DNA of 64,000 nt. Origin: Guyparkeria sp. SCN-R1 (GTDB lineage: Bacteria; Pseudomonadota; Gammaproteobacteria; Halothiobacillales; Halothiobacillaceae). The stretch lies in the NCBI RefSeq assembly GCF_003932495.1, contig NZ_QZMT01000001.1, positions 124,001-188,000 of the forward strand, in the 5' to 3' direction. Of the stretch, positions 36,931 through 39,451 are shown piece by piece (positions within the stretch are counted from its first letter, which is position 1; each line of letters begins with the position of its first letter). The translations under genes and the position numbers were made by a program. The notes under the pieces were generated by a model. It searched no databases. It worked only from the letters and a program-made list of their open reading frames with translations, and was not told the origin of the DNA.

Positions 36931-38106
36931 TCAGACTGCTTGGCCGGCGGCCACGCCCGAGGCCCAGGCCCACTGGAAATTGTGCCCACCGAGGTGGCCG
37001 GTCACGTCGACCACCTCGCCGATAAAGAATAGACCCGGTTGCCGCTGGGCTTCCATGGTCTGCGAGGACAATTCCCGCGTGTCGACGCCACCTAGGGTGA
37101 CCTCGGCCGTCCGGTAGCCCTCCGTGCCGGCCGGGTGGACGGTCCAGTGATGCAAGCGGTTCGCGACCGCTGTCAGGTCGCCGCGGGAATACTCCTGCAG
37201 CGGGCGAGACCAGTCGTGCCACTCACAGAGCACGCGTCCAAGGCGCCTTGGGAGGTGCTCGTCGAGGTACTGCAACACGGTGCCCTGCGGTCGATTCGCA
37301 CGGCGTTCGGCGAGATCCGTGGCCGCGTCGTGCCCGGGCAGCAGGTCGATGACCAGGGGCTCGCCGGGTTGCCAGAAGCTCGAGATCTGCAACATGGCCG
37401 GCCCGGACAGGCCGCGGTGGGTGAACAGCATCGGCTCCTCGAAGCGCATTCCGTTGGCCGTCGCCGCGACGGGAACGCTGATGCCGGCCAACGGGGCGAG
37501 GCGTTCCTTGAGGTCGGGGTGCAGGGTGAAGGGCACCAGCCCGGCGCGCGTGGGCAGAATCTCGATGCCGAACTGACGGGCGATCTCGTAGCCGAACGGG
37601 GTCGCGCCCATGGTCGGAATGGAGAGTCCGCCGGTCGCGATCACCAGCGATTCGGTCGTGATCGTGTCGCCTTCAGTAGCGACCCGGTAGCCACCGTCGA
37701 TTGCCTCGATCGCGTCGACGGGTGTCTTCATTTGCACATCGACGCCGGCCCATTCGCACTCGGTGAGCAGCATGTCGACGATCTCTTTCGCCTTGCCGGC
37801 GCAGAACAACTGCCCGGCGGCCTTTTCCACGTGCTCGATGCCATGGCGCTCGACCAGCTCGAGGAAGGCCTGCGGCGGGTAGCGCTTGAGCGCGGAAATG
37901 CAGAAGCGCGGGTTGGCGGAGAGGAACTGATTCGGGGTGCTGTTGAGATTGGTGAAATTGCAGCGTCCACCGCCGGACATCAGGATCTTCTGCCCTGCCT
38001 TGCGGGCGTGGTCGAGCACCAGCACCCGGCGGCCGCGATAGCCCGCCGCCGCCGCACACATCAGTCCGGCCGCGCCCGCGCCAATTATTACCACGTCCAC
38101 ATGCAT
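36931..38106 (-). CDS. HI0933/YhiN-family FAD-dependent oxidoreductase
   Basis: Flavoprotein of the HI0933 (BaiN/YhiN) family. Seen: the dinucleotide fold VVIIGAGAAGLMCAAAAGYR at the N-terminus, AGQKILMSGGGRCNFTN (family hallmark), ATGGLSIPTMGATPFGYEIA, and near the C-terminus EVTLGGVDTRELSSQTME with GLFFIGEVVDVTGHLGGHNF closing the FAD site. Physiological substrate is not settled for the family. The frame continues to 38151, but the ATG at 38106 directly precedes the flavin fold and has GAGG upstream. Length is 391. Confidence 0.9.
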   Translation of the reverse strand: MHVDVVIIGAGAAGLMCAAAAGYRGRRVLVLDHARKAGQKILMSGGGRCNFTNLNSTPNQFLSANPRFCISALKRYPPQAFLELVERHGIEHVEKAAGQLFCAGKAKEIVDMLLTECEWAGVDVQMKTPVDAIEAIDGGYRVATEGDTITTESLVIATGGLSIPTMGATPFGYEIARQFGIEILPTRAGLVPFTLHPDLKERLAPLAGISVPVAATANGMRFEEPMLFTHRGLSGPAMLQISSFWQPGEPLVIDLLPGHDAATDLAERRANRPQGTVLQYLDEHLPRRLGRVLCEWHDWSRPLQEYSRGDLTAVANRLHHWTVHPAGTEGYRTAEVTLGGVDTRELSSQTMEAQRQPGLFFIGEVVDVTGHLGGHNFQWAWASGVAAGQAV

Positions 38107-38136
38107 CGGGGGCCTCGGATAACGTCGTTTGCTCGA

Positions 38137-38301
38137 ATGACGCGGCATCATAGCAATGACCTCGCCGGCCTGGCGTCGGTTACCCTGCTGACCCTGTTTG
38201 CCGTTCTGGTTGCGTATGATCGGTTCGCGCGCCGGATCGGGTTGGCTGGGGATGTGGGGCAGTGGTTGAAACGGGAGATGAGGGACGAGTCGGCGTCCTG
38301 A
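38137..38301 (+). CDS. Possible small single-pass membrane protein
   Basis: A 54-residue frame starting at ATG 38137: a short polar N-terminus, one hydrophobic stretch (LASVTLLTLFAVLVAY), then a basic-amphipathic tail ending KREMRDESAS. It begins 30 bases from the divergent flavoprotein gene and ends before the repeat block. No ribosome-binding site is obvious and I know no homologue, so this may be chance. It is reported because composition changes abruptly after it. Confidence 0.3.
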   Translation: MTRHHSNDLAGLASVTLLTLFAVLVAYDRFARRIGLAGDVGQWLKREMRDESAS

Positions 38302-38326: not shown

Positions 38327-38895
38327 TTTTTCGCACGCCTGTTTCATGGAGGTGGTTCTGACCGAGCCGCCTTGCTCGGGAGCGCGAGTTCCTTTTCTTG
38401 CTTGTCCAAGAAAAGGAACTAAAAGAAGGACACCCCGGCGTCCTGGCCCTGCGGGCCTTCGAGCCCGGACGGAGTCCGGCCTCGAAGCCACCCACCGGCC
38501 GTGAGGCAGGACGCAAGGGGGATCTGGCTCCCGGCTATCAGTTGGCGTGGCTCAAACCGCGAGGGAACCGCTGGTCTGAAGGTGTGTTCTTGGTTTGATC
38601 GAAGGGGCGAGTCCCCTTGTGCCTTGCCTCGCGAGCGAGGGGTTGCAGGGTCTGGCCGGCATGGACGCCGGCCAGAGGTTCGCCGCGACAGGACGTCGCG
38701 TCGAACCGACCCGTCCGCAATCACTCGCTCGCGAGGCTGATCGTCGCGGATCGCATCCGCGGCGATCAGGCCCGGAGGGCCAAGGCACCGGGGTGTCTTC
38801 TTTTCGTCGGTTTTCTTGGACAAGCAAGAAAATCGAATCGCGCGCCGTGCCCGGCGGCCAATCCGGGCTGCTCCGCGTGACCGGCGTGCGAAACA
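38327..38895. repeat. Block of inverted structured repeats and hairpins
   Basis: This fills most of the 679-base gap between 38302 and 38980. Two diverged copies of a roughly 130-base unit face each other: 38327-38488 and, inverted, 38737-38895. Shared boxes are TTTCGCACGCC, TTTTCTTGCTTGTCCAAGAA, AAAAGAAG-like spacers, ACACCCCGG and a GGCCCT-GGGCC box. Each copy then carries a two-tier hairpin (38457-38487 and 38737-38769) of the same geometry but different bases. Further perfect hairpins lie between: 38602-38618, 38627-38640, 38651-38676 and 38677-38707. A 14-base inverted pair joins 38626-38639 and 38724-38737. Frames in the block have no protein character. Confidence 0.75.
38387..38420. 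repeat. Perfect 14-bp hairpin, core of the left repeat copy
   Basis: AGTTCCTTTTCTTG (38387-38400) pairs perfectly with CAAGAAAAGGAACT (38407-38420) around CTTGTC. The inverted partner at 38811-38832 keeps TTTTCTTG/CAAGAAAA with the same loop, but has lost the outer pairs. As I recall, similar TTTCTT-GCTTGTCC-AAGAAA cores occur in intergenic repeats of other gammaproteobacteria; this could not be checked here. Confidence 0.7.
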
Positions 38896-38980: not shown

Positions 38981-39451
38981 ATGACCATCTGGGTCGACGC
39001 CGACGCCTGCCCCGTCCCCATCAAGCAGATGCTGTTCCGCGCCGCCGATCGCGTCGGCGTGGACGTGGTGCTGGTGGCCAATCACGCCATCGCCGTGCCG
39101 CGCTCGAAACGCGTGCGCTTCATGCAGGTGGCACCGGGGTTCGATGTCGCGGACAATGCCATCGTCGAGGCGGCCGAGCCCGGGGATCTCGTGATCTCGG
39201 CGGATATCGAACTGGCCGCCGAGGCACTGGCCAAGGGCGCCGCGGTGATCGGGCCGCGTGGCGAGGTGTTTTCCAACGAGTCCATCCGCGGCCGTCAGGT
39301 CCAGCGCGAGTTCATGCAGACGCTGCGGGAAAGCGGAATCGCCACCGGCGGGCCGGCACCGTTGCACGCCCGGGACAAACAGGCCTTCGCCAGCGCGCTC
39401 GAGCGCTGGCTGAACCAGTACCAACGAGCACAACGCGAGAACAAGGCATGA
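38981..39451 (+). CDS. yaiI: YaiI/YqxD-family protein (DUF188)
   Basis: PIN-like-fold protein of unknown function. Seen: IWVDADACPVPIKQML at the N-terminus (conserved DADACP), DNAIVEAAEPGDLVISADIE and AAVIGPRGEVFSNESI. Length is 156 (E. coli YaiI 152). ATG 38981 starts the conserved N-terminus; the frame upstream to 38816 runs through the repeat block and is not credible. It overlaps dnaQ by ATGA (39448-39451), an association that may suggest a nucleic-acid role (inference). Confidence 0.92.
   Translation: MTIWVDADACPVPIKQMLFRAADRVGVDVVLVANHAIAVPRSKRVRFMQVAPGFDVADNAIVEAAEPGDLVISADIELAAEALAKGAAVIGPRGEVFSNESIRGRQVQREFMQTLRESGIATGGPAPLHARDKQAFASALERWLNQYQRAQRENKA

Follow-up and report, generated by a model that had tools for sequence, protein, structure and literature searches.

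We find that the non-coding region at 38327-38895 of the window (the whole 64,000-nt stretch of Guyparkeria sp. SCN-R1 DNA that was analysed) is made of two inverted monomers of roughly 290 nt, A on the minus strand and B on the plus strand, set back to back, and that this unit recurs in its own genome and throughout the genus. On balance, we lean towards reading the array as a dimer of a dispersed, non-coding, CsrA-binding RNA unit whose 3' end is predicted to be protected by a triple helix.

Layout of the element

A preliminary description of this DNA reported two facing copies of one structured repeat, and all the hairpins it listed are present at the positions it gave within 38327-38895. 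The left two-tier hairpin (38456-38487) reads CTTCGAG-C-CCGGAC-GGA-GTCCGG-C-CTCGAAG, those at 38737-38769 and 38677-38707 match what was described, and 38387-38420 and 38807-38836 hold the core hairpins. As inverted repeats, the copies show 82% complementarity along 50 nt and 81% along 37 nt. Recurrence of the unit elsewhere in the host genome and in the genus puts the pattern far beyond chance. The minus-strand reading of the left copy, the closing stem P1 (38613-38626 with 38781-38793), the GGA hairpin at 38651-38676, and the pseudoknot and predicted linker triplex around the core hairpin are all additions to that description. The ACACCCCGG box is the 3' arm of P1, and the conserved "core" is explained by the pairing of the D loop with the box together with the register match between linker and D stem. 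The features are as follows.

38327-38895, no strand: whole dimeric element, A left (-) and B right (+), 3' ends outward; ends TTTCGCACGCC / GGCGTGCGAAA
38613-38893, +: monomer B, complete RNA unit from P1 to end hairpin E
38613-38626, +: B, P1 closing stem, 5' arm CCCCTTGTGCCTTG (consensus fold)
38627-38646, +: B, P2, 5' arm
38620-38738, +: B, match to Rfam RF01731 TwoAYGGAY (61 bits, gathering cut-off 43)
38651-38676, +: B, hairpin 1, loop ATGGAC, CsrA-type
38677-38707, +: B, hairpin 2, loop AGGAC in GACAGGACGTC, CsrA-type
38717-38736, +: B, P2, 3' arm
38737-38769, +: B, hairpin C (the two-tier hairpin described earlier)
38770-38780, +: B, small hairpin GCCCGGAGGGC
38781-38793, +: B, P1 closing stem, 3' arm CAAGGCACCGGGG (the ACACCCCGG box on the other strand)
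38794-38797, +: B, predicted pseudoknot stem S1, 5' strand TGTC, partner 38819-38822 (covariation)
38798-38804, +: B, linker L1, predicted third strand TTCTTTT, in register with AAGAAAA at 38826-38832 (covariation)
38807-38836, +: B, D hairpin (stem S2); loop GACAAG at 38819-38824, its GACA being the S1 3' strand
38838-38893, +: B, end hairpin E, TCGCGCGCC ... GGCGTGCGAAA
38327-38521, -: monomer A, shortened; P2 is a remnant, and the two central GGA hairpins kept by the orthologues in L121 and L123 are lost
38507-38521, -: A, P1 5' arm
38456-38487, -: A, hairpin C
38433-38445, -: A, P1 3' arm CAGGACGCCGGGG
38429-38432, -: A, predicted S1 5' strand TGTC, partner 38403-38406
38421-38428, -: A, linker L1 CTTCTTTT, in register with the D-stem purine strand
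38387-38420, -: A, D hairpin (stem S2), loop GACAAG
38327-38387, -: A, end hairpin E region, TCGCGCTCCC ... GGCGTGCGAAAAA
38522-38612, no strand: centre spacer between the two 5' ends, with a semi-conserved GATCGAAGGG ahead of B

The element is flanked on the left by a minus-strand gene (36931-38151) that we take to be FAD-dependent oxidoreductase-like, and on the right by a plus-strand gene starting near 38981, presumably YaiI/YqxD-like. Translations of the element gave no Pfam match, leaving a protein-coding reading unsupported, and no sigma-70-like promoter was seen in the window element.

Selection acts on the fold of one strand

The consensus fold of 60 genus monomers (280 columns) contains P1, P2, the two GGA hairpins, hairpin C, the small hairpin and the D hairpin. 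In this alignment 98% of stem cells pair and many pairs have changed on both sides, strong support for the selection on folding that had been suggested from the window alone. The substitutions are also one-sided: where Watson-Crick pairs are the majority, we count 129 G-U against 8 A-C cells, and for the 56 pairs that are predicted whichever strand is folded the counts are 74 and 7. Folding the alignment gives -106.7 for the sense and -83.5 for the antisense strand. The D stem, which can be followed across lineages, holds 69 G-U and 15 A-C cells, with double changes in six of its nine model pairs. A DNA cruciform has no strand preference, so these one-sided counts favour RNA; the earlier suggestion was of RNA or cruciform DNA, and of the two the first is favoured and the second disfavoured. 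Judged from these alignments, the unit almost certainly folds as an RNA of about 290 nt on the strand whose 3' end points outward.

The box and the D loop pair as a pseudoknot

In an alignment of 43 D modules, the box GGGTGYC and the loop TTGGRCAAGCAA each have one variable base, and the two vary together. The same dependence is seen at larger scale: with a retrieval pattern that permitted all four box-loop combinations, the D-hairpin loop GRCA complements the preceding box UGYC in 153 of 154 distinct sequences (T-A 87, C-G 66, C-A 1, T-G 0). Loci found by BLAST and by R1, a covariance model of the 3' module that cannot encode the box/loop pairing, bring further S1 pairs: TGGC/GCCA, CGTC/GACG, CGTG/CACG, TGTG/CACA and TCGC/GCGA. 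An automatic test recovers the S1 complement in 34 of 46 held-out matches, and at least five of its failures (L305, L318, the minus-strand match in L259 and both in L256) are, by eye, cases in which the first loop base was miscounted as stem. Because they covary, we assign box and loop to stem S1 of a predicted H-type pseudoknot in which the D stem is S2, a structure in which we place very high confidence.

A variant in four species (L042, two copies in L078 and, similarly, L265 and G010:C47) has the D 5' arm swapped for an insert of about 17 nt (...CATNACTTGGC), with the loop and 3' arm kept.

The linker matches the D stem in triple-helix register

In an H-type knot, the linker that joins the 5' strands of S1 and S2 follows the deep groove of S2. 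Here it is rich in U and C and is, position by position, the parallel Hoogsteen partner of the S2 purine strand rather than its complement. Out of 706 linker/stem positions in 143 sequences, 485 are U.A, 157 C.G and 12 G.U; T/G and C/A occur three times each, and most other exceptions are a G at the linker end. Random reassignment of stems to linkers lowers the fit from 0.733 to 0.399 on average, with a maximum of 0.508, and the MI from 0.671 to at most 0.130. The sole register that fits is parallel zero, with a fit of 0.83 and an MI of 0.74, against at most 0.28 for other parallel registers; antiparallel pairing of linker and D stem is rejected, its MI being low (at most 0.22) at every register. 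The most telling combinations of stem and linker are CAAAGGAGAAG / TTTCCTCTT, CAATAGAAAG / TTGTCTTT and CAAATAAAAG / TTTGTTTT. Where a pyrimidine-motif triplex meets a U-A inversion, G is the natural base preferred in the third strand. C.G triples require protonation. Held-out loci follow the same code, with 120 U.A, 37 C.G, 6 G.U, 2 C.C and 1 misfit in 166 positions. We thus have good confidence in the prediction that L1 lies along S2 as a major-groove triple helix of seven to nine layers, with the code U.A-U / C.G-C / G.U-A.

An Alteromonas/Shewanella-like minority with a GGGG linker departs from this code. In these copies (L091, L105, L110, L112 of G415, and L155 of Shewanella) the linker is CTTGGGGTT and the stem ...ACCCCTTGC; the pseudoknot is unchanged and the relation of linker to stem is different.

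The 5' half is TwoAYGGAY and carries CsrA-like loops

Monomer B is matched by the Rfam TwoAYGGAY model, as listed above, and the host genome holds 16 such matches, 15 of them above the cut-off. The loops characteristic of the family are present in B (ATGGAC and AGGAC), and monomer A is without both hairpins. Over the first 38 loci scanned, the model reports four places in three loci, most copies falling below its cut-off. By its match and its ANGGA loops, which resemble CsrA sites, the 5' half of the unit is TwoAYGGAY, an RNA for which CsrA binding was proposed by Gardner and colleagues (PMC4333381).

The position of GGA within the fold is consistent with that proposal. In 78 cross-lineage copies GGA occurs in 93 of 391 sense loops, compared with 23 of 419 antisense loops and 21-30 after shuffling, and in 25 held-out copies the counts are 24 of 90 sense and 4 of 100 antisense. 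The longer motif ACA(R)GGA(Y)GT is found 39 times in sense, 3 in antisense and 0.2 in shuffled sequence over 74 genus copies (18, 3 and 0.1 across lineages); it is close to the CsrA SELEX consensus RUACARGGAUGU with its ANGGAN loop (PMC7652899). The stems of the element's GGA hairpins are long, unlike those of most strong ligands in that selection, which are mostly short (PMC7652899), and MFE folding yields the GGA hairpins in only 51 of the 78 cross-lineage copies. The copies inspected from Burkholderia, Paraburkholderia and Pasteurella showed no apparent GGA hairpin, so CsrA binding is not a universal function of the element. CsrA is encoded by the host genome and by 28 of 31 element-bearing genomes as against 16 of 34 others, a contrast much of which is explained by clade. 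We saw no conserved promoter upstream of the monomers. Given the loop sequences, binding of CsrA by the GGA hairpins is predicted with slightly better than even confidence; the protein-binding array proposed earlier is thus plausible for these hairpins and not for the element as a whole.

Copy number and distribution

Searching for further copies had been recommended as a check, and the unit proves to be multi-copy in the host and in its genus relatives, where the copies number dozens. Copy number in the host genome was estimated by pattern and model searches: a strict 3'-module pattern has 19 matches there (about 19 copies), up to 23 in congeners and 59 in G011, while a control pattern has none in any of these. 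The full 569 bp used as a BLAST query returns about 50 pieces from the host genome. The unit is present in 10 of 11 genus genomes, the exception being a genome that is 64% complete.

Beyond the genus, R1 has matches in 71 of 321 sampled Gammaproteobacteria (58 of 242 genera), and the 3' module is sporadic in other phyla. In GTDB records the D hairpin is intact in at least 79 of 87 pattern matches among the matches listed, some of which could be chance matches since the pattern specifies about 18 bases plus a variable gap. These records include Pseudomonas, Stutzerimonas, Azomonas, Dyella, Rhodanobacter, Thioalkalivibrio, Methylomonas, Salinisphaera, Endozoicomonas and Desulfobulbus, among others, as well as a Zetaproteobacterium and a Selenomonadales record. 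Further matches come from BLAST, in Aeromonas, Pseudoalteromonas, Pasteurella, Burkholderia, Ilyobacter and Paraburkholderia, the last with one replicon that carries at least 40. Plasmid matches are mostly on chromid-like replicons. There are no matches in 50,697 phage records, leaving the idea of phage cargo unsupported; of seven matches in viral contigs, two have an intact D module and the rest look coding or like chance. E. coli has no match to the element. A gene-cassette array was considered and rejected, the element clusters holding ordinary genes. Across the whole element Rfam reports TwoAYGGAY only, with Bp1_684 in Burkholderia; literature searches by core words and concepts returned no description of the element, and the triple-helix knot is likewise without a description in Rfam or the literature searched.

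Orthologous sites

The site upstream of the YaiI-like gene carries the element in four species and is without it in five. In two of these species (G002 and G009) the element has the opposite orientation to that in the window, so that A and B change places, and it lies after an RND-pump gene. This pump gene is missing together with the element in five congeners, and in the window a C-terminal remnant of an RND efflux pump (38157-38301, +) adjoins the element. A dimer occupies the dapC-dapD site in eight species, two of which have it inverted; G007 has a decayed remnant there, and in G004 the site is empty. The ABC-tRNA site carries a pair of monomers in two species and a single monomer in three; one species has a remnant, and in three the site is empty. 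From these occupied, empty and inverted states it follows that gain, loss and inversion of the element all occur, at a slow pace.

The suggestion of a REP/MITE-like mobile repeat therefore stands as far as multiple copies, intergenic location and empty and occupied sites go, and a link to a REP-type transposase was not found. No transposase with ends matching the element was found. Measured against MITEs, dimers have inverted ends and solo monomers have one such end only, and the flanks of the empty sites are too diverged to show a clear target-site duplication.

Other repeats are seen beside some copies. A second palindromic, MITE-like insert (GAATCTCTGCACGAATCGATGGTGCC ... inverted) lies within or adjoins several element copies in four species (L031 at 1441-1707, and L050, L083 and L087), and classical GTAG-type REP palindromes (TGTAGGTCGGACTTCAGTCCGAC) directly adjoin the copies in L033 and L034.

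Possible functions

For copies that carry the GGA hairpins, a CsrA-binding RNA with a protected 3' end is the predicted and likely function. P1 and the inner P2 hold the two ANGGA-loop hairpins, with the H-type pseudoknot and then the end hairpin following; the paired GGA hairpins would bind CsrA/RsmA dimers, and the triple-helix pseudoknot would shield the RNA 3' end from exonucleases. Jointly, the copies may amount to a distributed, stable, sponge-like CsrA-binding RNA made mostly by read-through from neighbouring genes, although we regard this putative sponge-like effect as tentative, and the unit would persist and spread as an interspersed chromosomal repeat. Since the triple-helix pseudoknot is the universal part, its role, be it 3'-end protection or a step in spreading, would be the more general one. 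That the unit is a SINE-like bacterial RNA, spreading through an RNA intermediate, protected by its triplex and exploiting or titrating CsrA, seems to us quite unlikely.

Two other readings are less probable. In one, which is possible if doubtful, the element stabilizes and insulates at 3' UTRs and between genes: read-through transcripts would end at, or be trimmed to, the pseudoknot, the upstream message would be protected, and an inverted pair would serve the genes on both sides. The gene context, scored with a simple ORF heuristic, fits this, with 21 convergent and 5 divergent pairs; in 37 of 55 cases the element lies downstream of a gene read in its own direction, and in the Zetaproteobacteria loci it comes directly after such a gene. 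By the same heuristic, however, orientation within tandem gene pairs is balanced (16 versus 13), intrinsic terminators or attenuators at the GGGGTG box, scored as a GC hairpin ahead of a T run, are at chance level (0.26 observed; 0.24 and 0.32 shuffled), a result that also speaks against the transcription barrier proposed earlier, and the conserved GGA hairpins are left unexplained. The second and somewhat less probable reading is a selfish interspersed repeat whose fold serves its own spread alone, the triplex-protected RNA or a folded single strand being copied by an enzyme acting in trans, and whose GGA hairpins are incidental or borrow CsrA. High and variable copy numbers, a wide and patchy distribution, chromosomal rather than phage-borne copies, inverted pairs, and orthologous sites that range from empty or remnant-bearing to occupied by one or two copies all suit such a repeat, and in a plant retrotransposon an RNA triple helix is reported to aid mobilization (PMC12501189). 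No partner gene was found, and RAYT is absent from the copy-rich G011 and G705; no clean target-site duplication is seen, and occupation of dapC-dapD in 8 of 10 species suggests slow turnover.

The remaining readings fare worse. That the DNA itself is functional, the mirror repeat forming H-DNA or a cruciform as a site of recombination or replication, is improbable: linker and D stem do form a pyrimidine mirror repeat, and inversion of the element at two orthologous genus sites implies that its arms recombine or that it reinserts, but G-U exceeds A-C by about 10 to 1 on one strand in helices seen on both, the loop-box covariation of S1 requires a single-stranded pseudoknot, and GGA lies in the loops of one strand only. 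A REP/BIME element moved by a RAYT (TnpA-REP) transposase is very improbable. The element is palindromic, dispersed and found in inverted pairs, some of these genomes have RAYTs, and true GTAG-type REPs adjoin some copies; against this, the D core occurs at none of 30 RAYT loci, no PF01797 gene is present in G011 (59 pattern matches) or G705 (at least 17 model matches), and unit size and hairpin plan differ.

Comparison with known systems

Like the TwoAYGGAY RNA (RF01731), the unit has a three-way junction, two hairpins with ANGGAN loops and flanking CAG/AG/CGUC; Rfam models this 5' domain only, and the half with the predicted pseudoknot and triplex, the dimer and the copy number lie outside the description found. 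The sRNAs CsrB, CsrC, RsmX, RsmY and RsmZ likewise carry several GGA hairpins in a row that agree with the CsrA SELEX consensus. Those RNAs are few stand-alone genes per genome with their own promoters and terminators, whereas the element is interspersed in many copies, showed no promoter in its window copy and has a predicted 3' pseudoknot in place of a terminator. Its similarity to REP/BIME elements and MITEs, which are also short, intergenic, palindromic, multi-copy, found as inverted pairs and preferentially between convergent genes, ends at an RNA-selected unit of about 290 nt with no GTAG guide, no linked RAYT and no demonstrated target duplication.

In the telomerase RNA pseudoknot, the MALAT1/PAN ENE, the transposon dENE and the SAM-II and preQ1-II riboswitches, a pyrimidine strand lies in the major groove of an A-rich stem and forms U.A-U triples. 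The element is predicted to place a pyrimidine strand in the same way, but here the third strand would be the pseudoknot's own L1, with seven to nine consecutive predicted triples that include C.G-C and G.U-A, in a bacterial, repeated element and without the involvement of a poly(A) tail. To our knowledge, triple helices this long are rare and known mainly from eukaryotic and viral RNAs. In MALAT1 the triplex guards the 3' end (PMC11411715). Should the fold prove correct, a scattered repeat that is among the commonest in Gammaproteobacteria would be a structured RNA containing an extensive triple helix, offering thousands of natural variants from which to read the rules of RNA triples, G.U-A included; the unassigned TwoAYGGAY family would be accounted for as one portion of a larger element, and the idea that CsrA-binding repeats are distributed over genomes could be tested directly.

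The Burkholderia sRNA candidate Bp1_684 (RF02421) overlaps the 3' end of a Burkholderia relative of the element (L255, 1234-1345). It covers only the D 3' arm and sequence downstream, and the description found for it does not present it as belonging to a repeat. In that locus, from Burkholderia cepacia, the overlap sits between lpdA and aceF.
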